From Streptomyces coffeae (GTDB lineage: Bacteria; Actinomycetota; Actinomycetes; Streptomycetales; Streptomycetaceae), in the NCBI RefSeq assembly GCF_016741875.1, contig NZ_JAERRF010000007.1:1-64000 (forward strand): a stretch of DNA of 64,000 nt, read 5' to 3'. Every line of letters starts with the position of its first letter. Within the stretch, counting starts at the first letter, position 1. The notes under the pieces are model-generated. The model ran no database searches. It was not told the DNA's origin and saw only the letters and a program-made list of their open reading frames with translations. Shown here piece after piece: positions 2 to 45,035 of this stretch. Made by a program: the position numbers and the translations under genes.

Positions 2-25875
<25,874 letters not shown>

Positions 25876-25940
25876 ACCGAGACCAGTCCAGACCAGTTGA
25901 TTCCCTCGTTTCGCCACTTGAGCACAAGGGACGCCCCCTC

Positions 25941-27191
25941 ATGACTGACTCCACGAAGCCCTACACCTCCGGCACCGAGACAGCCGAGGCCGACCTGTTG
26001 AACTGGGACTTCATCCAGGACCCGTACCTGACCTACCAGGAGATGCGCGCCGGGACGGGTCCTCGGCGGCTCGTCATCAAGACATTGAGCACAGGTCTGC
26101 GTTCGTGGCTGGTCACCGAATACAGCGATGTGCGTCGGCTGCTGGCCGATCCCAGACTCTCGAAGGCGGCCGGGGGTGCCGCACCGATCATCGCCAAGCA
26201 CAGCACGGAGGAGGTCTCGGGCGCGTCGATCACGTCGGACAGCATGCTATTCAGCGATCCGCCGCAACACTCGCGGTTGCGGCGGATGTTCAGTAGGGTT
26301 TTCACGATGCGCCGGACACTGAATCTGCGGCCGCGCATCGAGGAACTCACCGACGAGCTACTTGATTCGATCCCGGCGGGAACCGAGATCGACCTGGTGG
26401 AGTCGGTGGCGATGGCCATCCCCATTGCGGTGATCGGCGAGTTGCTCGGCGTACCTCGCGCCGCCCACCACGATCTTCGTCGGTGGAACCGCGCGCTGAC
26501 CAGCGTCGACTCGGAGCCGTCGGAGAAGTATCAGGCCTACATGGCGTCGCTCGACCACTTCCGGACCCTGGTTGCCCAGAAAGCGAGCAGTCATGACGGC
26601 GCAGACGACCTGATCAACGCGATGATCGATCCCGACAACGAGGAGCGGTTCGAAGAGTCCGAGCTGCTTTCCACCATCTTCCTGATGATGAACGCGGGGT
26701 ACGAGACCACCGCGAACTTGATCAGCAGCTCGGTCTACGCTCTGCTGAAGCATCCCGAACAGTTGGAGCTATTGCGCGGGGATGCCACCCTCATACCCAA
26801 CGCAGTGGAGGAATTCCTGCGCTATGAAAGCCCGTTGAACCTTTCTACACTGCGCTACACCACCGAACCGGTGGAGGTCGGCGATACTGTTATCCCCGCC
26901 GGCGAAGTGGTGTTTCTGGCGCTGTCCTCGGCGAATCGAGACCCGGATCGGTTCGCGGAGCCGGACCGGCTGGACATTCGCCGTAATGCTGCTACGCACC
27001 TGGCCTTCGGTCACGGTATCCATCATTGTGTCGGCGCGCCGCTGGCACGACTGGAGGGCGAAATCGTGCTGGCCCGGCTGTTGGACAGGTTCCCGCAGTG
27101 GGAGGCGGCCGAGCCACTGGAACGACTCACCTGGCGTTACACCTTGCAGTTCCGTGGTTTGGAGCGGCTACCGGTCAGGCTGCACGCATGA
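25941..27191 (+). CDS. Cytochrome P450 monooxygenase (tailoring)
   Basis: Haem-thiolate monooxygenase of 416 aa, a typical length for soluble actinobacterial P450s. The I-helix reads NAGYETT (the oxygen-activating A/G-G-x-D/E-T-T). The K-helix ExxR is in EEFLRYE. The haem loop is FGHGIHHCVG with ligand Cys363. The start at 25941 is preferred over the in-frame GTG at 25872 (which overlaps the PKS stop) because AAGGGA lies 9 bases upstream and the N-terminus then fits the family. It lies directly downstream of the PKS on the same strand, so it probably oxidises the polyketide in the same transcript. Electron partners are not visible nearby. The exact carbon oxidised cannot be read from the sequence. 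Confidence 0.95.
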   Translation: MTDSTKPYTSGTETAEADLLNWDFIQDPYLTYQEMRAGTGPRRLVIKTLSTGLRSWLVTEYSDVRRLLADPRLSKAAGGAAPIIAKHSTEEVSGASITSDSMLFSDPPQHSRLRRMFSRVFTMRRTLNLRPRIEELTDELLDSIPAGTEIDLVESVAMAIPIAVIGELLGVPRAAHHDLRRWNRALTSVDSEPSEKYQAYMASLDHFRTLVAQKASSHDGADDLINAMIDPDNEERFEESELLSTIFLMMNAGYETTANLISSSVYALLKHPEQLELLRGDATLIPNAVEEFLRYESPLNLSTLRYTTEPVEVGDTVIPAGEVVFLALSSANRDPDRFAEPDRLDIRRNAATHLAFGHGIHHCVGAPLARLEGEIVLARLLDRFPQWEAAEPLERLTWRYTLQFRGLERLPVRLHA

Positions 27192-27229
27192 TTCATGAAC
27201 ACCGTCAACGACGAGAACGGAGCGGACCC

Positions 27230-27589
27230 ATGTCAGCAGAAGTGATCGACCGATTCTTCAAGAGCTCGGGTGCCGGCGACATCGAGACCGCCGTCGAATG
27301 TTTTGCCGATGACGGGCAGTGGATCACGCCCGACGGAGACGGACTCGGGACGGTCCACACCAAGGATCAGATCGGCGATCTGATCACCAGTATGAACGCG
27401 ATGCGCGAAAAGATGGTCGCCTCTGGGGTCGACGGGAAGTTCGAATCGCCGATCATGTTCGGCGAGAACATGGGGCTGGTTCGGTGGACCGTGGAGACCG
27501 ATGACGGAAAGGTGGTCAATCGTGGTGTTGACCTCTTCATCCTGAGCGACGGGAAGATCGTGCTCAAAGACGTCTACCGCAAGGCCTGA
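27230..27589 (+). CDS. NTF2-like / SnoaL-type small protein (119 aa)
   Basis: The protein has the cone-shaped NTF2-like pattern: an N-terminal helix pair with FFKSSGAGDIETAVECFADD, a G-rich turn, and strands ending in LKDVYRK. The family includes SnoaL-type cyclases, limonene-epoxide-hydrolase-like enzymes and ketosteroid isomerases; in polyketide clusters members act as cyclases, epoxide hydrolases or dehydratases. The ATG at 27230 has GGAG 7 bases upstream. It sits 38 bases after the P450 and 28 bases before the beta-barrel gene, in a clear operon. Acting on the product of the preceding P450 (for example an epoxide) is an inference from position only. Confidence 0.75.
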   Translation: MSAEVIDRFFKSSGAGDIETAVECFADDGQWITPDGDGLGTVHTKDQIGDLITSMNAMREKMVASGVDGKFESPIMFGENMGLVRWTVETDDGKVVNRGVDLFILSDGKIVLKDVYRKA

Positions 27590-27617
27590 AAAACTCAATC
27601 AAGAAGGGGTCGAAGCC

Positions 27618-28040
27618 ATGATCAACAGCTACGAGGAACTGGTCGAGACAACGATCAGTGCCACCACTGACATCGAGGACTTTCAGAACATCCAGGTTGG
27701 CCAGGGTGGTAGCTACGAGCACGCCCTGTTCACCAAGTCCGGTGAAAAAGTGGCCACCACCTCAGGTGGCTACAAGATTCTCTATCAGCGAGAATCCGAC
27801 AAGCAGTTCATGGCCTATCTGACCAACGAAGTCGTCTTCGAGGACGGGTCCGGAACGATCCGGGTTGCCGGTTGGATCGATCTCGGCTCACTCCTGTCAG
27901 GGGACTGGGCCTACTACCCGAGTGTGGGTACCAGTGGCCGGTACCTCGGCCAAACAGGTTTCATGGCTTGGCGCCCTTACGATCTGGGCAAGGTGGAAGG
28001 AGCCGACGTGAAACTGATTATGTTTGCCTCTGCTGAGTGA
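27618..28040 (+). CDS. Putative AbyU/Tsn15-like beta-barrel pericyclase (allene-oxide-cyclase-like fold)
   Basis: This 140-aa protein has no signal peptide and consists mainly of predicted beta strands. The mid region reads TSGGYKILYQ and the second half carries WAYYPSVGTSGRYLGQTGF followed by AWR. This W..YP..G.SGRYLG.TGF..WR pattern matches what I recall of AbyU, the spirotetronate [4+2] cyclase, and its relatives, which belong to the allene-oxide-cyclase/dirigent-like barrels. AbyU is about 140 aa, so the length fits. SD AGAAGGGG lies 9-10 bases upstream. It is flanked by two NTF2-like genes, and the preceding PKS is predicted to make a conjugated diene, which supports a cyclisation role. 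The precise reaction is unknown. Confidence 0.68.
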   Translation: MINSYEELVETTISATTDIEDFQNIQVGQGGSYEHALFTKSGEKVATTSGGYKILYQRESDKQFMAYLTNEVVFEDGSGTIRVAGWIDLGSLLSGDWAYYPSVGTSGRYLGQTGFMAWRPYDLGKVEGADVKLIMFASAE

Positions 28041-28148
28041 ACGATCCCGCGGTGCCGCGATGAGGCGAGGGTACTCAAGGTTCAATATTCAGGGTATTTC
28101 TTTCGCCGCGAATTTGACACCCCTGTTTTCTGACGTGGAGGTTGAGAA

Positions 28149-28991
28149 ATGAGCCGGGTCGCCGGGAAAGTCGCATTGGTTACTGGCGCTGCGCGTGGAA
28201 TGGGACGTTCGCATGCGGTGCGACTTGCCCAAGAAGGGGCAGACATCGTAGCTGTTGACCTGTGCACAGACCTCGAAACCGCGCCGTATCCAGGAGCGAA
28301 CGGTCAAGATCTTGCCTCGACGACGCAACTCGTCGAACAGCTGGGCCGACGGATCCTTGCACGCCGGGCGGATACGCGCAACTTCAACGAATTGCAGGGT
28401 GTCGTCGATGAGGCGATAGCTGAGTTCGGTCATATCGACGTCGTGTGCGCAAATGCTGGAATGTCCAGCTTCGGGTTCTCGTGGGAACTTACCGATGAAG
28501 CCTGGCAAGAAATTATCGACGTCAATCTGACAGGATCGTGGAAAACCGTAAAAGCGGTGATTCCCCACATGATCGAACGGAATGAAGGCGGATCACTGGT
28601 CTTCATCAGCTCGACAGCGGGGTTGATCGGCGTGCCGACCATGGCGCACTACACCGCATCCAAGCACGGCGTGGTCGGGTTGATGCGTGCCTTGGCAGCA
28701 GAGCTGGCACCACACAACATACGCGTGAATTCGGTCAATCCCGGAAATGTCGACACGCCGATGGTCAACAATGCTCCGATGCGAAAAATCTACCTGCCCG
28801 AAGTCTCCGATCCGACACCGGAGGACGCAAACGAAGTGATGAAAGACATGAGCGCGTTGCCCACCGGCTGGCTGGACTCGCAAGGGGTCAGCGACGCCGT
28901 GGTCTATCTGGCGTCGGAAGAGGCACGTCACATTACTGGAATCACTCTTCCCGTGGACGCTGGAATGATGCTTCCCAATAAAATGCGATAG
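28149..28991 (+). CDS. Short-chain dehydrogenase/reductase, mycofactocin-coupled type
   Basis: This is a classical SDR of 280 aa. It has the TGAARGMGRSHA nucleotide-binding loop, the VDLC acidic residue favouring NAD, CANAG, catalytic Ser in ISSTAG and YTASK (Tyr-x3-Lys). The N-terminal GRSHAVRLAQEGAD, the long insert before LGRRI and the C-terminal TGITLPVDAGM are the marks of the mycofactocin-coupled SDR subfamily, whose tightly bound NAD is re-oxidised by mycofactocin. SD GGAGG lies 7 bases before ATG. Within this operon it probably oxidises an alcohol left by the PKS or installed by a P450. No mycofactocin genes are in the window. Confidence 0.88.
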   Translation: MSRVAGKVALVTGAARGMGRSHAVRLAQEGADIVAVDLCTDLETAPYPGANGQDLASTTQLVEQLGRRILARRADTRNFNELQGVVDEAIAEFGHIDVVCANAGMSSFGFSWELTDEAWQEIIDVNLTGSWKTVKAVIPHMIERNEGGSLVFISSTAGLIGVPTMAHYTASKHGVVGLMRALAAELAPHNIRVNSVNPGNVDTPMVNNAPMRKIYLPEVSDPTPEDANEVMKDMSALPTGWLDSQGVSDAVVYLASEEARHITGITLPVDAGMMLPNKMR

Positions 28992-29087
28992 GAGCTGGTG
29001 CCGATCCACGAATAAGACGTCGCTCATTGGTCAACCGAAATCCTGTCAGCGTCTCAGGCGCGCGAACAAGTTACCGGAGGCTTTCTC

Positions 29088-29564
29088 ATGATGACGGAGA
29101 ACGCATTCTCTCTCATGGTCGATCGACTCGATATCATTGAGTTGACGGCCAAATATGCTTATCGACTCGATACTCGCCAGTTCGATTCTTTGATGGAGCT
29201 GTGGAGCGACGACAGCCCGGTTTTCGACGAAGAAGGCTTCGGGCTGGGAAAGTTCACGGGGAAGGACGAGATCCGGCATCACTTCGAAGTCGATATCTAC
29301 GGACAGATGGAGAATCTTTGCCACATGACGGTCAACCATGTCATCAACGAGATTCTCGAATCCCGAGCGTCTGGTAACTGCCATGTCTTCGCCCAGGGTG
29401 ATGTGCGGGCCGGCGGGACTTCTCGGGCTACCGCGTACTACAAGGATGAATACGTTCGCGAGGATGGGGTCTGGAAGTTCTCCAGTCGCAAAGTGATCCC
29501 GTTGACCAGACCGGAAGTCGGCACCTTCGAATTTCCGGCAGGGCAGAACCCATTCGATCAGTAG
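29088..29564 (+). CDS. SnoaL-like / NTF2-fold polyketide tailoring protein
   Basis: This 158-aa protein resembles the SnoaL_4-type NTF2-like group (dehydratases, isomerases and ring-hydroxylating beta-subunit relatives): helix LTAKYAYRLDTRQFDSLMELW, then D-x-D-rich and strand regions, then HMTVNHVINEI. His in HMTVNH and the Asp residues near residue 40 could be catalytic, as in dehydratases of this fold. SD GGAGG lies about 8 bases upstream; ATG at 29088 and 29091 are both possible. It is the second NTF2-like gene flanking the barrel cyclase and SDR. Base composition is clearly lower in GC than the PKS. Function beyond a lyase, isomerase or cyclase is not determined. Confidence 0.78.
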   Translation: MMTENAFSLMVDRLDIIELTAKYAYRLDTRQFDSLMELWSDDSPVFDEEGFGLGKFTGKDEIRHHFEVDIYGQMENLCHMTVNHVINEILESRASGNCHVFAQGDVRAGGTSRATAYYKDEYVREDGVWKFSSRKVIPLTRPEVGTFEFPAGQNPFDQ

Positions 29565-29718
29565 ACTGGACAGCCACGGTCTGAGGCTGCCGTCGCGTGT
29601 CGGATCGCAGGACTCCCCGCGGCCGGTGCTGACCACGTGGTCGTGCATCGATTGCTCTAGATTCCAATTCTCGGCGATCAGAAGTATTGCCGGTCGCGTG
29701 GCCTGAGAAAGAAGGAAC

Positions 29719-30540
29719 GTGCACGCATCAACCACGAGTGGCGGATCATGGATCAGGCCGCTGCGAAGCTCACCTCAGCGCGGTCAAGTACACCTCATTT
29801 GCTTTCCGTTCGCGGGCGGTTCCGCCGGGTATTTCCGCTCGCTGGCAAACTCGCTCGAACCGGACATATCGGTGCTCGGAGTCCAGTATCCAGGGCGACA
29901 GGACCGGCGTCACGAGCCTTTGATCGAGGACATTGGTCGGCTCGCCGATGAGATTTGTGAGGCGTTGATCCCGTGGGAAACGCAGCCACTCGCATTCTTC
30001 GGTCACAGCATGGGTTCGGTGGTGGCGTTCGAGGTAGCGCGTCGCTTCCAGCGAGATCATCGACGCGCGCCGCTCGCATTGTTCGCGTCTGGGCGCCGCG
30101 CCCCGTCGTGTCATCGTGATGAGGATTTTCATGCGGCCGATGATGACAGTATCATTGCCGATCTTCGATCGCTGGGTGGAACCGACCCGGCTCTTCTCGA
30201 CGATGACGAGATGAGACGCGTGATCCTTCCCGTTATCCGTGGCGATTATCGGGCCGTCGAGGCTTATCGTGCGCCAACAACAGAGACGATGTTGAACGTG
30301 CCGATCACGGCAATAACCGGCGATCGCGATCCGAGCGTGTCGCTCGAGGAAGCGAGTGCTTGGCGAGGACATGCAGCGGGATCATTCGAGATAGAGGTCC
30401 TGACCGGAGGTCACTTCTTCATACACGAGCACGTCGCCGAGATAGCCGACTGTGTGAGGCGTGTGCTCTTCGGCTTCCGTTCCGAACGCACTCGACCGCT
30501 GCGCGTCGATGTGGCATCCCAGAGTCGAGGTCATTCATGA
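29719..30540 (+). CDS. Type II thioesterase (editing thioesterase of the PKS)
   Basis: Discrete alpha/beta-hydrolase thioesterase of 273 aa. These proteins remove wrong or stalled acyl groups from ACPs. The conserved N-terminal block LICFPFAGGSAGYF, the PGRQDR motif, nucleophile Ser97 in GHSMG, an Asp at 202 or 204 (TGDRDP) and His232 in GGHFF give a complete catalytic triad. The GTG at 29719 is very close to the AAGGA ribosome site, so the exact start is uncertain. It is co-directional with the tailoring genes; about 150 bases upstream hold no gene. It does not replace the missing terminal TE of the PKS. Confidence 0.93.
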   Translation: MHASTTSGGSWIRPLRSSPQRGQVHLICFPFAGGSAGYFRSLANSLEPDISVLGVQYPGRQDRRHEPLIEDIGRLADEICEALIPWETQPLAFFGHSMGSVVAFEVARRFQRDHRRAPLALFASGRRAPSCHRDEDFHAADDDSIIADLRSLGGTDPALLDDDEMRRVILPVIRGDYRAVEAYRAPTTETMLNVPITAITGDRDPSVSLEEASAWRGHAAGSFEIEVLTGGHFFIHEHVAEIADCVRRVLFGFRSERTRPLRVDVASQSRGHS

Positions 30541-30597
30541 GGCGTCACGGCGGAACGCCAGGGTCTGTTCAGCGACGAACCGGAAGAGGGTGCGGCC

Positions 30598-30789
30598 ATG
30601 GACGTCGGACTTGAAGTGAGCTGCCCGATGTGCGGAGGTCTCATCGAGGCGACTGACAAAGATGAGCTCATCCGCTTGTCCCAGCTACACACGATTGATG
30701 CCCACCGCTATAACGTTCCCGATGAACACGTGTTGGCCGCAATGACGCCCGGTGGTATCGATCCCCATCAGGGAGAGGACGCGCAATGA
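30598..30789 (+). CDS. Small CxxC protein, DUF1059-like, coupled to P450
   Basis: This 63-aa protein has CPMCGGLIEA followed by LSQLHTIDAH, a Cys-x2-Cys plus two-His arrangement that could bind a metal. It loosely resembles the DUF1059 small-protein pattern (CxxC followed by H-x3-4-H) but is not confidently assigned. GAAGAGGG precedes the ATG. Its TGA overlaps the ATG of the next P450 (ATGA), so the two are made together. It lacks the three or four Cys ligands of a 3Fe-4S or 4Fe-4S ferredoxin, so it is unlikely to be the P450's ferredoxin in the usual sense. The function is unknown. Confidence 0.7.
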   Translation: MDVGLEVSCPMCGGLIEATDKDELIRLSQLHTIDAHRYNVPDEHVLAAMTPGGIDPHQGEDAQ

Positions 30790-32012
30790 ACTCTGCAGCG
30801 GCGGAATGTCCCACCGTGGACTTGAACATGCTTGATCCTGACTTCGTGCAGGACCCCTATGAGACCATGGCTGCATGGCGAGCCTTGGGGCCGGTTGTCT
30901 ATAACTCTCATCACGATCAGTACATGATCACGTCGCATCACAACTGCGCGCGAGTGCTTGGTGACATCCGCCATTTCAACTCTGCAAACGTGCTCCCGGA
31001 GATGGAGAAAGCGTTCGGCGGACCGACTTTTCTCGGCACTGATGGTGCACGGCATCAGACGGTCCGCAGAATTTGGGAGCCAGGATTCGAGCGCAGGGCT
31101 GTCGAAGCCGACTGGGCGGCGCGGATAGAGCGCGTTGTGGACGTATACGTGGATAAATTCGTTGAACGCCTTCGCTCCGGCGAATCTCTCGACGCTCTCG
31201 CGGAGATGACGCGAATTATCCCCACTGTTGTCACTGCCCAATTGATGGGCGCCGAAGAGGATGTGTACGAAGACTTCATCAAATGGAGTGACGCAACGGC
31301 GGCGGTTCTCGGCGCACGGCTGGACCCGACTCCGAGGGGTCAAGAGATTATGGCCGACGGCGCTGCGGCAGCAGTTGCTCTGAACTCGTACATCGCCGGC
31401 CTCATCGAAAAGCACCGTGCGCTGGGGGTGAGTGATGGATCGCTGATGGCCCAGATGGTGTTCGACGATTTCGCGCCGTCCATGCCTGATCGGGAAATAT
31501 TGGCAAACGGGACGATGCTGACGGTTGCGGCGAATGAGAGTACGGCGCAGGTGATGGCGATGATGCTGTATGCGCTGGGACGCCATCCTGACCAACGTCG
31601 CGCGCTGGTCGCCGACAGGTCGCTTGTTCCGGCCGCGCTCGAGGAGGTCCACCGCTGGTCGACTCTCACGCAGTCGGTTTTGCGCTTTGCCTGTAGCGAC
31701 GAGTCGCAGGTCGAGGGTTTTACGATCCCCGAGGGTTCCGCAGTCGTGGCTCTTCTGGGTTGCGCGAATCGCGATCCCGCTCGCTGGGACAACCCACACT
31801 CCTTCGACATCTTCCGTCTCCGTAAAGCACATATTGGCTTTGGTTTCGGGCCTCACATCTGCCTTGGAATTCATATGGCTCGGATGGAGATGCGCATCTG
31901 GTTGAATCGGCTGCTGGACAAGTTGCCGGATTACGAGATCGCGGGCGAAATAGAATTCGGCCCTGACTTCACGCTGCGGGGCCTTCGGGGGATCCCGATC
32001 AAAGCGGCATGA
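30786..32012 (+). CDS. Cytochrome P450 monooxygenase (second tailoring P450)
   Basis: 408 aa with the haem loop FGFGPHICLG and ligand Cys359, and ExxR within EEVHRW. The I-helix reads VAANEST: the acidic residue is kept but the usual Gly and Thr of A-G-x-E-T-T are Ala and Ser, a change that can alter oxygen activation or mark atypical chemistry. The start codon overlaps the stop of the small CxxC gene. It is the last gene of the tailoring operon; the next 285 bases hold no gene. It probably acts late on the polyketide. It is distinct in sequence from the first P450. Confidence 0.94.
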   Translation: MNSAAAECPTVDLNMLDPDFVQDPYETMAAWRALGPVVYNSHHDQYMITSHHNCARVLGDIRHFNSANVLPEMEKAFGGPTFLGTDGARHQTVRRIWEPGFERRAVEADWAARIERVVDVYVDKFVERLRSGESLDALAEMTRIIPTVVTAQLMGAEEDVYEDFIKWSDATAAVLGARLDPTPRGQEIMADGAAAAVALNSYIAGLIEKHRALGVSDGSLMAQMVFDDFAPSMPDREILANGTMLTVAANESTAQVMAMMLYALGRHPDQRRALVADRSLVPAALEEVHRWSTLTQSVLRFACSDESQVEGFTIPEGSAVVALLGCANRDPARWDNPHSFDIFRLRKAHIGFGFGPHICLGIHMARMEMRIWLNRLLDKLPDYEIAGEIEFGPDFTLRGLRGIPIKAA

Positions 32013-33850: not shown

Positions 33851-34150
33851 ATGGTTCACGCCGACCAAGCGCCAGTCTTGACCCCTTTTCCGCCCGCGCC
33901 GTCACTCTTCCATCCCCCGCCGGAGCTGAACGAGCTGCAACGAGACCGTCCGGTCACCCGGTTCCGGCTCGCTGACGGCAAGACCGGTTGGCTGGTCACG
34001 CGCTACGAGGACGTGCGCCAGGTGCCGACCGACTCGCCCGAGCACACCCGTCCGCGCTGGCTCATCGCCGGCGCATTCACCGCCCGTCGTGTGGAAGCGC
34101 TGCGGCCGCGAGTGACTGATGTGGACGCCGACCTTGTGGAGAACTTGTGA
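33851..34150 (+). pseudogene. Cytochrome P450 remnant (N-terminal, internal deletion)
   Basis: This 99-aa frame begins like a P450 (TRFRLADGKTGWLVTRYEDVRQV) and then jumps in frame to SPEHTRPRWLIAGAFTARRVEALRP, the B'/C-helix region. About 35 residues between are missing, as are the I-helix, ExxR and haem loop. ATG is preceded by GGAGG. Its stop overlaps the start of the luciferase-like gene (GTGA), so translation of the remnant could still drive the next gene. It cannot be an active P450. Confidence 0.85.
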
Positions 34151-35328
34151 CTAGTCTGCGCTTCGGTGCGTTCCTGCCCCCGATCCACCCGCTGGGGGAG
34201 AGCCCGACATGGTGGCTGCGCCACGACCTGGACTTCATGGCGCACCTCGACCGGCTGGGCTTCGACGAGGCGTGGATCGGGGAGCACCACTCGACCGGTC
34301 GGGACCTCATCGCCTCGCCCGAGATCTTCATCGCGGCGGCAGCGGAGCGCACCACCCGGATCCGCCTCGGGACCGGCATGACCTCGCTTCCGTACCACCA
34401 TCCGCTGTGGGTGGCCGACCGGATGGTGATGCTCGACCACCTCACGCAGGGCCGGGTGATGCTCGGGGTCGGTCCCGGCTCCCTGCCCTCCGACGTCGCC
34501 ATGATCGGCATGACCCCCACCGAGAGCCGCGAGCTCCTCGAGACCCATCTCGACGTCATCCAGCGGCTGCTGGCCGGTGAGTCGGTCACCACGACGGTCG
34601 GGAGCCACACGCTGGTCGACGCGACGCTGCAGCTGCGCCCGTTCACCGAGCCGTGCTTCGAGATCGCGGTGGCCGCGACGGCGTCGCCGACCGGCGCGCG
34701 CCTGGCCGGCAGCCGCGGTGTGAGCCTGATCTCGCTCGGGGCGACCATGAGCCAGGACGGATTCGACGCGCTGGCGTACCACTGGGGGATCGCCACCGAG
34801 CGCGCCGCCCACGCGGGACGGCCGGCGCCCGACCGCGCGACCTGGCGGCTGGTCACGAACGTGCACGTCGCCGAGACCCGGGAGCAGGCATACCGCGACG
34901 TCGAGTTCGGGCTGCGGGACTGGGTGAGGCACCTGAACGACAACGCGGCCACGCCTGGGCTCGCGCTGCCCGACGGCAGCACGCGGGAGCTGATCGAGTT
35001 CGTCAACGAATCGGGCCTGGGCGCGATTGGCACGGCCGACGACGTCCGCCGCCAGATCCAGCGCATGGTCGACCAGTCCGGCGGGTTCGGCACCGTGCTG
35101 CTGCTGGCGCACGACTGGGCCGGCCCGACGGCGAAGTGGCGCTCGTGGGAACTCGTCGCCCGTCAGGTCGCCCCGCACTTCCAGGGATCAGGGACGACCC
35201 ACGCCCAGGCGTCCCACGACGCCCGGGCCCGGATTCTCGCGCGGCGCGAGGAGGCGAGCATCGCAGCCGGCGCGGCGCTCGAGCACATGAACCGCAAGTA
35301 CGCCGACGAGGTGGCCGGGGGAGCCTGA
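34147..35328 (+). CDS. Luciferase-like (LLM-class) flavin-dependent monooxygenase
   Basis: 393 aa with a bacterial-luciferase TIM barrel: LRFGAFLPPIHPLGESP at the N-terminus, FDEAWIGEHH, RLGTGMTSLPYHHPL, DHLTQGRVMLGVGPG and LLLAHDWAGP near the end. It most resembles the limonene-monooxygenase-like branch that uses reduced FMN (or F420) to oxidise a substrate; which cofactor cannot be decided here. GTG at 34147 overlaps the stop of the P450 remnant. Downstream lies an IS1380 fragment. Its product could belong to the polyketide pathway or to another one; the neighbourhood is rearranged. Confidence 0.88.
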   Translation: MTSLRFGAFLPPIHPLGESPTWWLRHDLDFMAHLDRLGFDEAWIGEHHSTGRDLIASPEIFIAAAAERTTRIRLGTGMTSLPYHHPLWVADRMVMLDHLTQGRVMLGVGPGSLPSDVAMIGMTPTESRELLETHLDVIQRLLAGESVTTTVGSHTLVDATLQLRPFTEPCFEIAVAATASPTGARLAGSRGVSLISLGATMSQDGFDALAYHWGIATERAAHAGRPAPDRATWRLVTNVHVAETREQAYRDVEFGLRDWVRHLNDNAATPGLALPDGSTRELIEFVNESGLGAIGTADDVRRQIQRMVDQSGGFGTVLLLAHDWAGPTAKWRSWELVARQVAPHFQGSGTTHAQASHDARARILARREEASIAAGAALEHMNRKYADEVAGGA

Positions 35329-36764: not shown

Positions 36765-37316
36765 GTGGCCGACGCGCGCGCGGACGCTGAACTCGACGGG
36801 CTTCCCGTTGCACTGCATGCGAAAGTCGCCGCCGCGCAGGCAGCGTGGGCGGTTGCTCGCTGCGCGCGGCACACGGTCGTCCCGGAACACTACTGGCCGC
36901 ACGAAACCGATCTCGCCGCGCTGCGCGCCGGGCGAGCACTGACCGAGCTGGTCTCCCGCTACGTGGAGAGGGCCGTCGTGGCCGCACGGGCCGAGGGGAT
37001 CGGCTGGCCGGTCATCGGCGAGGCGCTCGGGGTCGCCGACCCGGAGGCCGTTCTCGGACCCGCCGTCGCCGGTTGGACCGAAGAGCTGGCGCGCGTCCGC
37101 GCGGGACAGGTGCACCTGGCGGACCAGCCGGCGCTCGAATGGGTCGTCGACACGGCTTGGTGGGCCGAAGCGCTGCGGGAGTGGCTCATCAGGCCCGGTG
37201 ACAACCTCCTCGACTCCGCGGCCGGACGACCGCCGGCGAACGGGAACGGCTGGTGGCACCCGGGTGAGCGTACCGCCGGCGAGGACGACGAGGCCGAGGC
37301 GGGCCTCCTGCCGTGA
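36765..37316 (+). CDS. Hypothetical actinobacterial protein upstream of ccr (183 aa)
   Basis: A GTG start is used. The protein is mostly alpha-helical and Ala/Glu-rich: RAGRALTELVSRYVERAVVAARAEGIGWPVIGEALGVADPEAV resembles the helix-turn-helix-like ending (W-x-x-I-G-x-A-L-G) of a group of small actinobacterial proteins of unknown role. The C-terminal tail is acidic and Gly-rich. Its stop overlaps an upstream in-frame GTG of ccr (GTGA) and the chosen ccr start is 26 bases on, so both are probably co-transcribed. I do not recognise a function; a DNA-binding or accessory role is only a guess. Confidence 0.6.
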   Translation: MADARADAELDGLPVALHAKVAAAQAAWAVARCARHTVVPEHYWPHETDLAALRAGRALTELVSRYVERAVVAARAEGIGWPVIGEALGVADPEAVLGPAVAGWTEELARVRAGQVHLADQPALEWVVDTAWWAEALREWLIRPGDNLLDSAAGRPPANGNGWWHPGERTAGEDDEAEAGLLP

Positions 37317-37342
37317 ACCGGACCAGCGAAGGAAGGAAAGCC

Positions 37343-38707
37343 GTGCCGAACGCAGAGCTCAAGGAGATCCAGCAGGCCGTCGTGGCCGGGGACCCGGGCG
37401 CGCTGGCCGGGCTGCGGGTGCCGGAGAGCTACCGCGGCGTGACCGTGCACGCCGAGGAGACCGAGATGTTCAAGGGCATCGCCAGCGCGGACAAGGACCC
37501 GCGCAAGTCGCTGCACGTGGAGGAGGTCCCGACACCGGAGCTCGGGCCCGGTGAGGCGCTGATCGCGGTAATGGCGAGCGCGATCAACTACAACACGGTC
37601 TGGACCTCGATCTTCGAGCCCTTGCCGACCTTCAAGTTCCTCCGGCGCTACGGGAAGCTGTCCCCGCTGTCGAAGCGGCACGACCTGCCCCACCACGTGG
37701 TCGGCTCGGACGCCTCGGGTGTCGTGCTGCGGACCGGGCCCGGGGTGCACCGCTGGAAGCCCGGCGACGAGGTCGTGGCGCACTGCCTCAGCGTCGAGCT
37801 GGAAGGCCCCGAGGGCCACGACGACACGATGCTCGATCCCGAGCAGCGGATCTGGGGTTTCGAGACCAACTTCGGTGGCCTCGCCGAGATCTCCCTGGTG
37901 AAGGCGAACCAGCTGATGCCCAAACCCGCGCACCTGACGTGGGAGGAGGCGGCAAGCCCCGGGCTGGTCAACTCGACCGCGTACCGGCAGCTGGTGTCGC
38001 GCAACGGTGCGAACATGAAGCAGGGCGACGTGGTCCTGATCTGGGGTGCCTCCGGTGGGCTCGGCTCGTACGCCACGCAATACGTGCTCAACGGCGGCGG
38101 CATCCCGGTGTGCGTCGTGTCCAGTCCGGAGAAGGCGGAGATCTGCCACCGCCTCGGTGCGGAGCTGGTCATCGACCGCAGCGCCGAGGGGTACCGGTTC
38201 TGGCGGGACGAGCACACCCAGGACCCGAAGGAGTGGCAGCGGTTCGGCGCCCGAATCAGGGAGCTGACCGGCGGCGACGACGCGGACATCGTGTTCGAGC
38301 ACCCGGGCCGGGAGACGTTCGGCGCTTCGGTCTACGCGGCCCGCAAGGGCGGCACGATCGTGACCTGCGCGTCCACCTCGGGGTACACGCACCAGTTCGA
38401 CAACCGGTACCTGTGGATGAACCTCAAGCGGATCGTCGGATCGCACTTCGCGAACTACCGGGAGTCGTGGGAAGCCAACCGGCTGATCGACAAGGGGCTC
38501 ATCCACCCGACGCTGTCGAAGTCCTACGCGCTGGAGGACACCGGCCAGGCCGCGCTCGACGTGCACCGCAACGCGCACCACGGCAAGGTCGGCGTGCTGT
38601 GCCTCGCGCCGGAAGAGGGCCTCGGCGTGCGGGACAAGGACAAGCGTGCCCGGCACCTCGGCAGCATCAACGCATTCCGCCAGGTGCACCGGGATTCCGG
38701 CCGGTGA
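37343..38707 (+). CDS. ccr: Crotonyl-CoA carboxylase/reductase
   Basis: 454-aa medium-chain reductase that carboxylates and reduces 2-enoyl-CoAs with NADPH and CO2, giving ethylmalonyl-CoA or longer alkylmalonyl-CoA extenders. Visible features: SAINYNTVW, HHVVGSDASGVV, WGFETNFGGLAE, cofactor loop GASGGLGSYATQ, ADIVFEHPGRETFGASV and SHFANYRE, the set expected for Ccr with the CO2-binding Asn, Phe-Glu and His positions. GTG 37343 is chosen because GGAAGGAAAG lies just upstream. Its stop overlaps the start of a discrete ACP gene. It likely supplies the unusual extender used by a PKS AT such as that of module 4. Confidence 0.97.
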   Translation: MPNAELKEIQQAVVAGDPGALAGLRVPESYRGVTVHAEETEMFKGIASADKDPRKSLHVEEVPTPELGPGEALIAVMASAINYNTVWTSIFEPLPTFKFLRRYGKLSPLSKRHDLPHHVVGSDASGVVLRTGPGVHRWKPGDEVVAHCLSVELEGPEGHDDTMLDPEQRIWGFETNFGGLAEISLVKANQLMPKPAHLTWEEAASPGLVNSTAYRQLVSRNGANMKQGDVVLIWGASGGLGSYATQYVLNGGGIPVCVVSSPEKAEICHRLGAELVIDRSAEGYRFWRDEHTQDPKEWQRFGARIRELTGGDDADIVFEHPGRETFGASVYAARKGGTIVTCASTSGYTHQFDNRYLWMNLKRIVGSHFANYRESWEANRLIDKGLIHPTLSKSYALEDTGQAALDVHRNAHHGKVGVLCLAPEEGLGVRDKDKRARHLGSINAFRQVHRDSGR

Positions 38708-39706: not shown

Positions 39707-40012
39707 GATAGGGCAATACCGCCTGTGGCATACGAAGCCAACTACTACCGAGCAACCACGAACCCCCACCTCGCAGCCACCAACTGAGATCGAACCAGGG
39801 GCGGTTCACCATTCTGCCCACAGGTTCAACGGCGTGATCGACTGGGGTGGACATGGGTGTGGCCAATGTCAGCCCTACGGATGGTCGAATCAGTTTTGTG
39901 GCATTGATGTCTAGTCTTAATCGATCGATTTCCGTATTTCCGATCCTTCTTCCGCGCGGTCTGTCGGTGCGTGCGACGTAGGAACCGCTCCATGAGGGAC
40001 AGGGTATCGTGC

Positions 40013-42796
40013 ATGATCGAGCGAGAGTCTGAGCTCGCTGAGCTGGCTGCAGCTTTTGCCGAGTCCGCGGCTGGGGGTGTGCGGGTTGTCGTGCTTCAGG
40101 GGGTTGTCGGGACCGGTAAGACAGCGTTAATCGAGGAGTTCGGCAGCCGGGCTGGTGGGGCGGGGGCGCGACTACTCCGGGCGAGTGGGGCGCCGACCGA
40201 GTGCTCGCTTTCCTTGGGCATCGTGCGTCAGTTGCTTGCTGGTGAGGTTTTCGACCGCGACAGGGCGGCGATCGTGCGTGGTTTGCTCGACCACCAGCTG
40301 CTCGCCGATGCGGAGTGCGACGGGGTCAGTCGCTCTCGGGTGTTGGACGGGTTGGCGACGGCGGTTCTGGAGTTGGCCGAGCAGAGCTCGGTGGTGATCG
40401 CCATTGACGACACACAGTATCTCGACGCGTTTTCCCAGGATTGGCTGATCTATCTGATCCGCCGTGCCGGGCTCGCCCGCATCTTAATCGTCCTTGGCTG
40501 GCGCGACGACGACATCGAGATGTCTCCGAGCAACTCCCGGCTACTGTGTGCCGAACTCTACCAGCAGGCCTACTTGCGGCGGCTGCTGCTGGCTCCACTG
40601 TCGTCGAGCGGCGTCGCGGAGCTCATGACCGAGCGACTCCTCGAGTCCGTTTCGACGGAACTGGCCGCGGAGGCACACCAGTTCACCGGTGGCAATCTGC
40701 TGCTGCTGCATGCGTTGCTGGAGGACAGTCGGGCTGCCACCCGCGGCGATGGCCCGCCGGCCGAGCTGAACACCGGGCCCGAGTTCGAGCGGGCGGTCCA
40801 GCTCGTCCTGCGCCGGTGCGATCCGGTGACGTTGCGGGTCGCGGGTGCGATCTCGGTGATCGGTGAGCCGTCGCGGTTCGCGTACCTCGACCGGCTGGTC
40901 GGCGTCGCGTCGGACCGGGTCGCTGTCGCGATGCAGGTACTGACCCGGACCGGTTTGGTGGAGGCCGGCCGGATGCGGCACCCGATCATGGCCGGCGCCG
41001 TGCTCAACGCCTTCTCGGCCGCGGATCGATCCGAGCTGAGCCGGCGCGCTGTGGATCTGCTCAAGGCGTGCGGTGCGGACTCCTTGACGATCGCGGAGCA
41101 CTTCGTCGCCTCCGGCCGTCTCGACGACCCCTCGGCCGTGCTGAACCTGGTGGAGGGGGCGCAGCAGGCGCTGGAGGAGGGCCACTCGCGGCGGGCCACA
41201 GAGCTGCTGCGGCTGGCGTACCAGGTCGAAACCGACGGCCGGCGTCGGGTGGAGATTCTGGCCTTGCTGCTGCGGGCGGAGTGGCGGGACGATCTGCGAG
41301 CCTCGGTCGGGCATCTGCCCGAGTTGACCGAGGCGATGCTGAGCGGTCGACTTCGGGGTCGGCACGCGACGATGCCCATCATCATGCTGCTGCTCCAGGG
41401 GCGGGTGGAGGATGCTTGCTCCGTGCTCTCCCGGCTGGCGGCCGACGTGCCGCCGGGCTCCCGGCCCTCATGGGAGTTCGAGATGGTACGGATGTGGCTG
41501 GCCGACATGTATCCGGGCATCTTCCGGCGCGTGGCCGGCGAGAGCAGGACGAACGGCACGCCGATCATGCCTCCGGGCGCTATCGGTTATCGATTGCTCG
41601 AACACTTCCAGAGCTCCCACCACCAGGGGGCAACCGCGGAACGCTTGGTCCAAGCCGACGAGGCGCTTTGGCAACAGCCGCTGACCGAGATCAATCTGTT
41701 GCCGCTCATTCTCGCGTTGCACACGATGGTGTATGCCGAGCGATTGGAGGAAGCCGAGCAGCGGTGCCGGGAACTGATGCAGACCTGTCTCGACCTCCAG
41801 GCACCCACCTGGCGTGCGCTGTTTTGCGCGATCGCAGCGGACATCGCCTTGCGCCGGGGCTCGCTCAGCGTCGCGATCTCCCGGGCGACCGCCGCGCTCG
41901 AACTCATCCCGGTCGCCGAATGGGGCGTGCTGGCCGCTGAACCGTTGAGTACCCTGCTGACGGCGCAAACGCTGCAGGGCAAACACGACGAAGCGGCACG
42001 CACGCTCGCCCTGCGAGTGCCGGACGTGATGTTCGAGACGCCGTTCGGCCTGTCCTACCTGCTGGCGCGCGGCCGTCACTACGTCGAGCGCGGTCTCGCC
42101 CAGGTCGCCCTCGACGATTTCCAGGCCGTCGCTGACCTGCTCGACCAGTGGGGGATGGCCCAAACCGAGACACTGCCGTGGCGCACGGAGATGGCCGCCG
42201 CTCACCTGCAACTCGGGGACCACGAAATAGCCGCGCGCTACGCTCGCGAGCAGCTGCGCCGGATCGGCACAGACGGCCACATGCGGGTGCGCGGGCGCAC
42301 CATGCGGCTGCTGGCGGCGACCCGCGAACTGCACCTCCGACCACCTATGCTGTGCGAGGCTGTGGATGTGCTGCACCGAAGCGGGGATAAGTTCGAGTTG
42401 GCGAGTGCGCTCGCCGCCCTGCACGATGCATACACCCAACTTGGTGATGCTGGCCGGGCGCGGTCAGTGGCACGCAAGACCAACAGCATCAGGCAGGCGT
42501 GCTTCGCAGAACAACCCGCTCGGCGGGTTGGCGCGCCGGACGTGCTGGAGGAGACGGAAGTCGACATGCTTGCCCTCAGCGATGCGGAGCGGAAGGTCGC
42601 CAAGGCCGCGGCAAAGGGCCTGACCAACCGGGAGATCGCCGGCAAGCTCTACCTCACGACCAGCACGGTGGAGCAGCACCTGACCCGGACCTACCGCAAA
42701 CTGGGGGTCAGCTCACGAGTACAGCTGCAGTCCCGCCTAGCTAATCCCGGGGCGATACCCAGCACCCCGGTGAACCGCGCCGGGAGCACCTCGTGA
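40013..42796 (+). CDS. LAL-family transcriptional regulator (large ATP-binding LuxR)
   Basis: 927 aa from the ATG at 40013 (in-frame starts at 39971 and 39992 are possible). N-terminal AAA-type ATPase: Walker A GVVGTGKT at residues 30-37 and Walker B VVIAIDDTQYLD. A long helical TPR-like middle follows. The C-terminal LuxR helix-turn-helix is LSDAERKVAKAAAKGLTNRE and STVEQHLTRTYRKLGVSSR. LAL proteins are usually pathway-specific activators of polyketide clusters. Its TGA overlaps the GTG of a CoA-ligase start, so the two were once co-translated. It is the only cluster-type regulator in the window. Confidence 0.93.
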   Translation: MIERESELAELAAAFAESAAGGVRVVVLQGVVGTGKTALIEEFGSRAGGAGARLLRASGAPTECSLSLGIVRQLLAGEVFDRDRAAIVRGLLDHQLLADAECDGVSRSRVLDGLATAVLELAEQSSVVIAIDDTQYLDAFSQDWLIYLIRRAGLARILIVLGWRDDDIEMSPSNSRLLCAELYQQAYLRRLLLAPLSSSGVAELMTERLLESVSTELAAEAHQFTGGNLLLLHALLEDSRAATRGDGPPAELNTGPEFERAVQLVLRRCDPVTLRVAGAISVIGEPSRFAYLDRLVGVASDRVAVAMQVLTRTGLVEAGRMRHPIMAGAVLNAFSAADRSELSRRAVDLLKACGADSLTIAEHFVASGRLDDPSAVLNLVEGAQQALEEGHSRRATELLRLAYQVETDGRRRVEILALLLRAEWRDDLRASVGHLPELTEAMLSGRLRGRHATMPIIMLLLQGRVEDACSVLSRLAADVPPGSRPSWEFEMVRMWLADMYPGIFRRVAGESRTNGTPIMPPGAIGYRLLEHFQSSHHQGATAERLVQADEALWQQPLTEINLLPLILALHTMVYAERLEEAEQRCRELMQTCLDLQAPTWRALFCAIAADIALRRGSLSVAISRATAALELIPVAEWGVLAAEPLSTLLTAQTLQGKHDEAARTLALRVPDVMFETPFGLSYLLARGRHYVERGLAQVALDDFQAVADLLDQWGMAQTETLPWRTEMAAAHLQLGDHEIAARYAREQLRRIGTDGHMRVRGRTMRLLAATRELHLRPPMLCEAVDVLHRSGDKFELASALAALHDAYTQLGDAGRARSVARKTNSIRQACFAEQPARRVGAPDVLEETEVDMLALSDAERKVAKAAAKGLTNREIAGKLYLTTSTVEQHLTRTYRKLGVSSRVQLQSRLANPGAIPSTPVNRAGSTS

Positions 42797-43937: not shown

Positions 43938-45035
43938 TTACGCCGCATGTTGGTATTCGTGGAGGATGCCGCCGAGGCGTTCGTGTCGGCGTATGTCGAG
44001 GCGGGCTGACGCGTCGGGATCGTCGATCGGCGGGGGCAAGGGGTGGAGCGGTCTGGCGATTGCGATGCCCTGGTGTGGTCGGTGTCCGTTGTAGAACTGC
44101 TCGAACTCGCGCAGGGTGTGGAGGAGATGTCGCTGGTTCCAGATCAATGTCCGGTCCAGGAGCTCGCGGCGGCAGGTCTGTATCCACCTTTCCGTGATCG
44201 AGTTCATTCGTGGCATCTGGATGCCGCTGAGGACGACTTCGATCCCCGCGTCCTTGAGGACGGCATCGAAGAGGTCGGGGAACTTCCCGTCCCTGTCCCC
44301 GGATCATGAATCGTGCGCGGCAGCCGAGGTCTTCGAGGTCCATGACGAGGTTCTTCGCCGCTTGCGCTACCCAGGATGTGCTCGGATGCGCGGTGGCGCC
44401 CAGGACGCGGATCCGGCGACTGCCGTGTTCGATCACCACGAGCACGTGCATCCGCATCCCCGACAGGGTGACTGTTTCCATGAAGTCGCAGGCCAGCAGG
44501 GCATCAGCCTGGCTGCGAAGGAAGTTGGCCCAGGTACTGGAGTTCCGCTCGGGTGCTGGCTCGATGCCGGCCTCCTTCAAGATCTCCCAGACGGTGGACG
44601 CGCCCACCTTCACCCCCAGCACAAGCAACTCGCCGTGCAGACGCCTGTACCCCCAGCTCGGGTTCTCCTTCGCCAGGCGCAGAACCAGGATGCGAATGGA
44701 GCGCACGATGCGCGGGCATCCCGGGCGTAGGGTCGGCAGGACGCGGCATGGCGACCTGCGACGAGGGTGCGGTGCCAACGCAGCACCGTGTCAGGGCGGA
44801 CGAGCAGCCGTAATCTTCGCAGGACGTGCAGTGGCAGCCGGTGCAGCAGCGCCGCCAGGAACGCCCGATCGCTCGGCGTGAACCGGACCTTGTCCTTGCC
44901 GAGTTGGCGTTCCAACACGGTGATCTGGTGGCGCAGGGCGAGGATCTCCGCGTCCTTGTCCCGGTCGGTCATCGGCAGCAGGCGAAGCATCGCGAACGCG
45001 TTCGACACACCCAGGTAAGCCAGTCGCAGCAGCAC
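43938..45035 (-). pseudogene. IS3/IS481-like integrase-core transposase, several frameshifts
   Basis: Three consecutive minus-strand frames complete one transposase: 45035-44740 (ALRHQITVLERQLGKDKVRF), 44778-44310 (GASTVWEILKEAGIEPAPER, LLACDFMETVTLSG with the first Asp, LGATAHPSTSWVAQAA) and 44216-43938 (MPRMNSITERWIQTCRRELL with the Glu motif, FEQFYNGHRPHQGIA, GGILHEYQHAA). At least two frameshifts separate them, so it is inactive. The + strand frames here are shadows. Confidence 0.85.

Follow-up and report, generated by a model that had tools for sequence, protein, structure and literature searches.

A barrel protein of the AbyU fold beside a CatM orthologue as a candidate [4+2] cyclase in an apparently tetronate-free Streptomyces polyketide cluster

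A small barrel protein of Streptomyces coffeae is proposed, at a moderate degree of probability, to be a candidate accelerator of [4+2] cycloaddition within a beta-keto polyketide chain that is not a tetronate. The proposal draws on sequence comparison and on a structural model. The barrel gene lies within a stretch of 64,000 nucleotides (contig NZ_JAERRF010000007.1, positions 1 to 64,000; here termed the window), behind a modular polyketide synthase (PKS), a cytochrome P450 and an orthologue of the crystallised protein CatM. Its first nucleotide is also the first of contig C220, so the first PKS gene is cut. The genes considered are as follows.

2-7489, plus strand: C-terminal part of PKS-A, with the rest of module 1 (DH-KR-ACP) and module 2 (KS-AT-KR-ACP); motifs, and Pfam on the S. 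varsoviensis orthologue
7486-25875, plus strand: PKS-B, with module 3 (KS-AT-ACP), modules 4 and 5 (KS-AT-DH-KR-ACP), module 6 (KS-AT-KR-ACP) and a docking-type C-terminus; Pfam and motifs
25872-27191, plus strand: cytochrome P450 (P450A), adjoining the SnoaL gene on its 5' side; Pfam p450 6.6e-35
27230-27589, plus strand: SnoaL-like protein (SnoaL_A), CatM orthologue (PDB 9iq5), 119 residues, directly upstream of the barrel gene
27618-28040, plus strand: AOC_like eight-stranded barrel, 140 residues; PF18678 E 1.3e-43, AlphaFold2 pLDDT 88, nearest to AbyU, AbnU and Cyc15b
28149-28991, plus strand: mycofactocin-coupled SDR oxidoreductase; TIGR03971 396.4 bits, cut-off 300; 8 of 8 clusters
29088-29564, plus strand: second SnoaL-like/NTF2-type protein (SnoaL_B), 158 residues; SnoaL_4 2.5e-18; 8 of 8 clusters
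29719-30540, plus strand: type II thioesterase; Pfam Thioesterase 2.2e-53; 7 of 8 clusters
30598-30789, plus strand: ORF of 63 residues with one CxxC motif; no Pfam match above cut-off; 5 of 8 clusters
30786-32012, plus strand: cytochrome P450 (P450B); Pfam p450 5e-30; 6 of 8 clusters
34147-35328, plus strand: luciferase-like monooxygenase; PF00296 1e-40; cluster membership uncertain
37313-38707, plus strand: crotonyl-CoA carboxylase/reductase; TIGR01751 599.5 bits, cut-off 378.55; within 10 kb of 6 of 8 clusters
39971-42796, plus strand: large LuxR-type regulator (AAA and LuxR; PF13191, PF00196), a possible cluster regulator

The barrel is encoded by an ATG-initiated reading frame with AAGAAGGGG a few bases 5' of the start codon. 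The original prediction had singled out this protein by the pattern W..YP..G.SGRYLG.TGF..WR, which is present from W97 to R119 (W97..Y100P101..G104.S106G107R108Y109L110G111.T113G114F115..W118R119). A search with the AbyU family, as had been suggested, gives a match far beyond chance, AOC_like being the sole Pfam family above its cut-off (147.7-148.1 bits; cut-off 25.9); reading frame, pattern and family are thus all real and the observation as a whole is confirmed. The best solved relatives by sequence alone are AbyU (E 4e-21), AbmU (1e-13) and 7dvi, titled AbnU (1e-12). Family membership by itself is no proof of a pericyclase: AOC_like proteins occur commonly, in 97 of 391 genomes, often appear to be secreted (12 of the 18 checked, by a crude rule) and are sometimes found without a PKS. 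Two strong Pfam scorers (loci L038 and L039; genomes G249 and G171) have no PKS within the stretches read, although their 136.2 and 133.7 bits are near the 147.7 of the window protein. The S. coffeae genome itself encodes a second AOC_like protein (locus L002, G000:C187:51013-51321; 33.5 bits), the N-terminus of which looks secretion-like by eye and which has a lone KS gene close by.

An AlphaFold2 model of the barrel built from 26 sequences has a pLDDT of 88.1 and eight strands, the fold that had been predicted from the resemblance to AbyU. Comparison of the model with AbyU by VIA-align gives Z 21.4 and an rmsd of 1.3 over 132 aligned residues. AbyU, AbnU and Cyc15b are the nearest structures, AbyU and AbnU both at Z ~21 with 28-30% identity, and the best 18 VIA entries (Z 21.4 to 16.6) comprise AbyU, AbnU, Cyc15b, LucK, Cyc15, PyrI4, PloI4, AbmU and Tsn15, all of them [4+2] or pericyclic barrels with the exception of LucK, which is known here from the title of its PDB entry alone and resembles the barrel in fold. 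AbnU, AbmU, Cyc15/Cyc15b and LucK (PDB 7dvi, 6le0, 8of7, 9qp8, 9uuv) share the fold at 26-29% identity; AbmU, AbnU and Cyc15 are described as spirotetronate cyclases (PMC10946715). The barrel had been called AbyU/Tsn15-like, of which the AbyU half stands on fold, family and 28-30% identity, whereas the Tsn15 half does not (11% identity, Z 16.6). Pyocyanin demethylase, a protein of other function, also reaches Z 16.6 and is level with Tsn15. Dirigent proteins and plant allene oxide cyclases score 15.1-11.6, the dirigent proteins up to 15.1, and identity with either was rejected in view of the 21.4 for AbyU.

AbyU (PDB 5dyv, 7pxo) has the same PF18678-type barrel, and Glu10, Tyr100, Trp118 and an aromatic residue at 33 are kept in the window protein. 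The two differ in that Tyr76, Arg122 and Met126 of AbyU are replaced by Leu68, Met116 and Pro120, in their neighbouring genes, and in that the genome of the window protein is without an FkbH match. The head pair Glu19-Arg122 of AbyU becomes Glu10/Met116, with the glutamate kept and the salt-bridge arginine replaced by methionine in all eight orthologue rows of alignment A2 (arginine in 18 of 18 AbyU-type rows); this assessment concerns the amino acid at position 116 only, and Glu10 may have another partner. Tyr76, which hydrogen-bonds the lactone carbonyl in AbyU (PMC11268479), corresponds to leucine in the same eight rows and is tyrosine in 18/18 AbyU-type rows. The opposed aromatic pair Trp124/Phe41 of AbyU (PMC10946715) is kept as Trp118/Tyr33. 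In the account of PMC10946715, Tsn15 and Tmn8 have neither salt bridge nor aromatic pair. The barrel resembles Tsn15, from the tetronasin system, in fold and in the missing head salt bridge, and differs from it in possessing the aromatic pair. Assignment to a Tsn15/Tmn8-type barrel was likewise rejected since the pair is present although the arginine is absent; having lost one feature and kept the other, the barrel matches neither the AbyU-type nor the Tsn15/Tmn8 group exactly.

FkbH is a marker of tetronate formation. The absence of tetronate genes from the window, noted in the original prediction, holds and extends genome-wide with this marker: FkbH (TIGR01686) has no match across the S. coffeae draft (252 contigs; completeness 100 by the tool used), in which an FkbH gene inside a gap could escape, whereas all three AbyU-type control genomes have one 1.9 kb away from the barrel gene. 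The result is complicated by S. varsoviensis, which carries an FkbH gene ~7 kb past PKS-D (G391:C1:558648), within a neighbouring gene group that has no match of at least 55% identity on contig C192 of the window strain, and we treat it as a neighbour and not as part of the cluster. The two FkbH genes of S. iranensis are both on contigs separate from its two cluster parts. A plain spirotetronate cyclase was rejected on this control, with none in the window genome against three of three. Classing the barrel as an AbyU-type spirotetronate cyclase is not advisable, because three of the features tested, the salt-bridge Arg122, Tyr76 and tetronate genes with FkbH as their marker, are wanting, although it may well work like one.

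The protein encoded directly upstream of the barrel, SnoaL_A, alters the interpretation of the cluster: it and crystallised CatM (PDB 9iq5), a homologue of AkaM, differ at a single residue of the 118 aligned, and 9iqn, titled CatM-W86A, differs further at residue 86. CatM is a protein already studied by others: the PDB titles are CatM (9iq5), AkaM (9iq3), SacM (9iq7) and MicM (9iqd), and these four entries, some with substrate mimics bound, were released on 2025-07-16. The CatM identity comes from comparison with 9iq5, the AlphaFold2 model of SnoaL_A being poor (pLDDT 47) and its structural scores meaningless. No paper on CatM or on the barrel was found in the open library searched, nor any under 9IQ3/5/7/D/M/N; the product may well be published elsewhere. 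The arrangement after the PKS, a P450 gene directly before an AkaM-family SnoaL gene, is that of the AkaM/CatM type, and the cluster looks akaeolide-like in kind because the corresponding P450-SnoaL pair follows the last PKS of the akaeolide cluster. There, a P450 and a 115-residue SnoaL-like cyclase follow a last PKS of 1322 residues (PMC4306953), and the aldol-type carbon-carbon closure by the SnoaL-like cyclase is put forward in that source as a proposal only. The last PKS has ~1,320-1,350 residues in both systems and is here a single KS-AT-ACP-TE module, and the akaeolide (AkaM), CatM, SacM and MicM proteins share the order of P450 then AkaM-family SnoaL with the window. The akaeolide PKS has eight modules including loading, and the gene table of PMC4306953 names no AOC_like gene. 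Unlike it, the window cluster has ten modules and the extra barrel, SDR and second SnoaL genes; it was not taken for the akaeolide cluster itself on account of the module count, eight in that source against ten.

A SnoaL profile search in three overlapping samples of 383, 394 and 392 genomes, each including the window genome, returned four close copies (window genome, G059, G068 and G997) and six divergent relatives. All six divergent loci have a P450A homologue, 51-56% identical, directly upstream, and five, all but G007, also show a PKS match within the stretch. An AOC_like gene lies directly downstream of the SnoaL gene in two (G869 and G649), while the other four (G249, G007, G557 and G925) have no barrel gene within the stretch read. 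The barrels of G869 and G649 share 40-41% identity with the window protein, compared with 30-33% for the four AbyU-type rows in the same alignment. They retain the arginine (GFRQWRP) but carry Ile and Leu in place of Tyr76; the CatM-linked barrels therefore have the loss of Tyr76 in common, and the arginine is missing only from the type in the window.

The assembly line is a composite of the window, contig C192 of the same strain, which carries the start of PKS-A and the whole of PKS-C and PKS-D, and S. varsoviensis, the sole source for the loading AT-ACP and for the module 1 KS and AT. On the S. varsoviensis contig PKS-A and PKS-B are followed by the tailoring genes, and PKS-C and PKS-D are divergent; its PKS-B (L073, G391:C1, ~612000) appears as two overlapping ORFs split in the module-6 AT, a frameshift or sequencing error. 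In total there are a loading module (KSQ-AT-ACP) and nine extension modules with a terminal thioesterase. The first, truncated module in the window has DH-KR; module 2 has KR, module 3 no reduction, modules 4 and 5 DH-KR, module 6 KR, module 7 DH-ER-KR and module 8 DH-KR, and module 9 is KS-AT-ACP-TE. The order would be A-B-C-D because KSQ is in A, the thioesterase in D and the ends are of the docking type. Pfam agrees with the prediction that modules 4 (10606-15975) and 5 (15976-21105) both carry DH and KR, and hence give a diene. The catalytic His and Asp of DH are kept, for module 4 in the five clusters covered (of eight) and for module 5 in all eight, and the motif Gly is Asp/Glu in both modules; from the sequences the two domains are likely to be active. 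The AT motifs are HAFH in the loading module and modules 1, 3, 5, 6 and 9, YASH in module 8 and, more unusually, YGSH, YPTH and VAGH in modules 2, 4 and 7. The motifs are read in their usual sense for PKS modules. The crotonyl-CoA carboxylase/reductase may possibly fit the supply of an unusual extender to this PKS. A PNPOx-like ORF (L080, 1667-2368, minus strand), 85% identical to its S. varsoviensis match, lies between the divergent PKS-A and PKS-C, and a methyltransferase gene (L080, 18193-19425) follows PKS-D in the window strain. Behind PKS-D, S. pyxinicus, S. olivaceus and NEAU-Y11 have 89-93% identical methyltransferase matches; that of each of the remaining three genomes spans only 94-99 residues. 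The polyketide repertoire of the strain is very large, with 144 KS C-terminal domain matches in 9.9 Mb.

A genome scan with two short peptide patterns, which would miss more distant relatives, returned 26 loci, of which seven are orthologues (87-99% identical) and 19 are AbyU-like relatives (35-40%); plasmids gave no match. The orthologues are carried by Streptomyces sp. NEAU-Y11, S. pyxinicus, S. varsoviensis, S. sp. 8L, S. olivaceus NRRL B-3009, S. iranensis and Saccharothrix coeruleofusca. The order PKS-B, P450A, SnoaL_A, barrel, SDR, SnoaL_B is kept in all eight orthologous clusters, the window included; so constant a mycofactocin-coupled SDR was judged unusual for a polyketide cluster. 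Identical residues occupy 115 of the 140 barrel positions across the eight (25 vary), and dN/dS is 0.05, 0.13 and 0.12 for the three pairs computed. The eight orthologues form their own clade (97/97), apart from the AbyU-type proteins (100/98), in a tree. Alignment A2 took 25 of the 26 scan loci (L054 was left out). Searching 31 loci with the A2 profile gave a barrel in 18; four of these duplicated rows already present and were dropped, and the 13 loci without one do not appear in the trees. In a second tree, without four long-branch rows, the G249 and G171 AOC_like proteins sit within the CatM-linked group, where their branch is long and weakly supported (89/79), so the CatM-linked barrels are not shown as a single clade. 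The GC content falls from ~0.72 to 0.58 at the tailoring genes (24001-32000), and third-position GC of the barrel gene is 0.71 in the window and 0.91 in S. varsoviensis; the low GC of this block suggests a different recent history. ORFs resembling transposase or integrase pieces by eye lie at 43938-45035 on the minus strand, and the S. varsoviensis cluster is flanked by a 931-residue ORF whose N-terminus, viewed unaligned, is like that of the LuxR-type regulator.

The PKS would produce a C20 chain with a C1 acid, a C3 ketone, a C4=C5 enone with a C4 methyl (module 8), a C9 hydroxyl, a diene C10=C11-C12=C13 (modules 5 and 4), a C15 ketone, a C17 hydroxyl, a C18=C19 alkene and a C20 methyl. The diene most likely would react with the module-8 enone, which is encoded outside the window, across a four-atom tether to give a decalin with bonds C5-C10 and C4-C13, and the lumen of the barrel would hold the chain folded for cycloaddition, as in AbyU. 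The module-1 alkene, previously suggested as the dienophile, is probably not the partner, since the module-8 enone would be better activated and would also give a six-membered ring; C18=C19 could form such a ring too, but would be unactivated unless C20 is oxidised. On balance the original interpretation is partly supported. By analogy with the akaeolide proposal, the C20 and C2 ends are the most likely sites of action of P450A and the CatM-like protein, in which case cycloaddition could come either before or after closure of the carbocycle. The analysis shows the reading frame with its family, predicted fold and neighbours, the PKS domains and the missing FkbH match, and from these we infer chain structure, reaction and timing. 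A fuller version, which we put forward only tentatively and hold to be rather unlikely as a whole, is that there is a CatM-linked AbyU-fold subfamily acting transannularly, in which the CatM-like protein and the P450 would close a 19-membered carbocycle (C2-C20), the barrel would form a decalin-containing polycycle by [4+2] cycloaddition, possibly followed by a hetero-[4+2], and the barrel would be a modular add-on in some akaeolide-type clusters. Nargenicin, FR182877, hexacyclinic acid and cochleamycin were considered as possible product types for this cluster.

The [4+2] reading is preferred because family and fold fit and the best 18 VIA entries are pericyclic barrels or LucK; because the barrel stands behind the PKS in all eight clusters and behind the P450-SnoaL pair in two of six divergent loci, with low dN/dS; and because the PKS would give a diene and an activated enone and the aromatic pair is kept. 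A tetronate acceptor is disfavoured because FkbH is unmatched in the genome with three positive controls and a thioesterase ends PKS-D. Against the [4+2] reading stand the loss of Arg122 and Tyr76, a fold common to enzymes of other function, the changed DH motif Gly in modules 4 and 5, the occurrence of AOC_like proteins without a PKS, and two SnoaL-like proteins in the same operon as rival cyclase candidates. If the latter perform the cyclisation, the barrel would be a non-pericyclic helper, such as an oxa-cyclase, an isomerase or a dirigent-like binder shielding a reactive enone. The putative indane cyclase IdmH (PMC6830212) is of the SnoaL/NTF2 type, as is the aldol cyclase proposed for akaeolide (PMC4306953), two AOC_like genes have no PKS around them in the stretches read, and dirigent proteins and pyocyanin demethylase have the same fold; yet Diels-Alderases are the nearest solved relatives, and with four of six divergent SnoaL loci lacking a barrel in the stretch read, the barrel has to contribute something in the loci that retain it, which leaves the helper role unlikely.

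Hardly more probable, and if anything slightly less so, is a Tsn15-like hetero-Diels-Alder reaction or other rearrangement, in which an enone or alkylidene beta-keto oxadiene would be turned into a pyran by the barrel. A SnoaL-made alkylidene at C2 would be such an oxadiene and the head salt bridge is absent, as it is from Tsn15 and Tmn8 in PMC10946715, but the aromatic pair lost from those two proteins is kept here and identity to Tsn15 is only 11%. Clusters may also hold genes that are not needed for the product, and the barrel gene could be cryptic or vestigial; with dN/dS at 0.05-0.13 in three pairs, 115/140 positions invariant and the gene in every one of the eight clusters, we regard this as very improbable. 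The least probable of all is an ordinary AbyU-type spirotetronate cyclase, to which the common fold and the 28-30% identity to AbyU and AbnU would point, but which is opposed by the lack of any FkbH match in the genome (1.9 kb away in the three controls), the thioesterase end of PKS-D, the replacement of Tyr76 and Arg122, and the separate clade (97/97 vs 100/98).

The barrel cyclases in the papers cited act on tetronates or related spiro-forming acceptors. If the [4+2] reading is true, the AbyU scaffold would not be tied to a tetronate acceptor, as this barrel is without Tyr76 and is found in a genome without an FkbH match, and the protein would be a natural starting point for decalin-forming biocatalysts. 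Its pairing with the crystallised SnoaL protein CatM would make the order of the two cyclisation steps directly testable.
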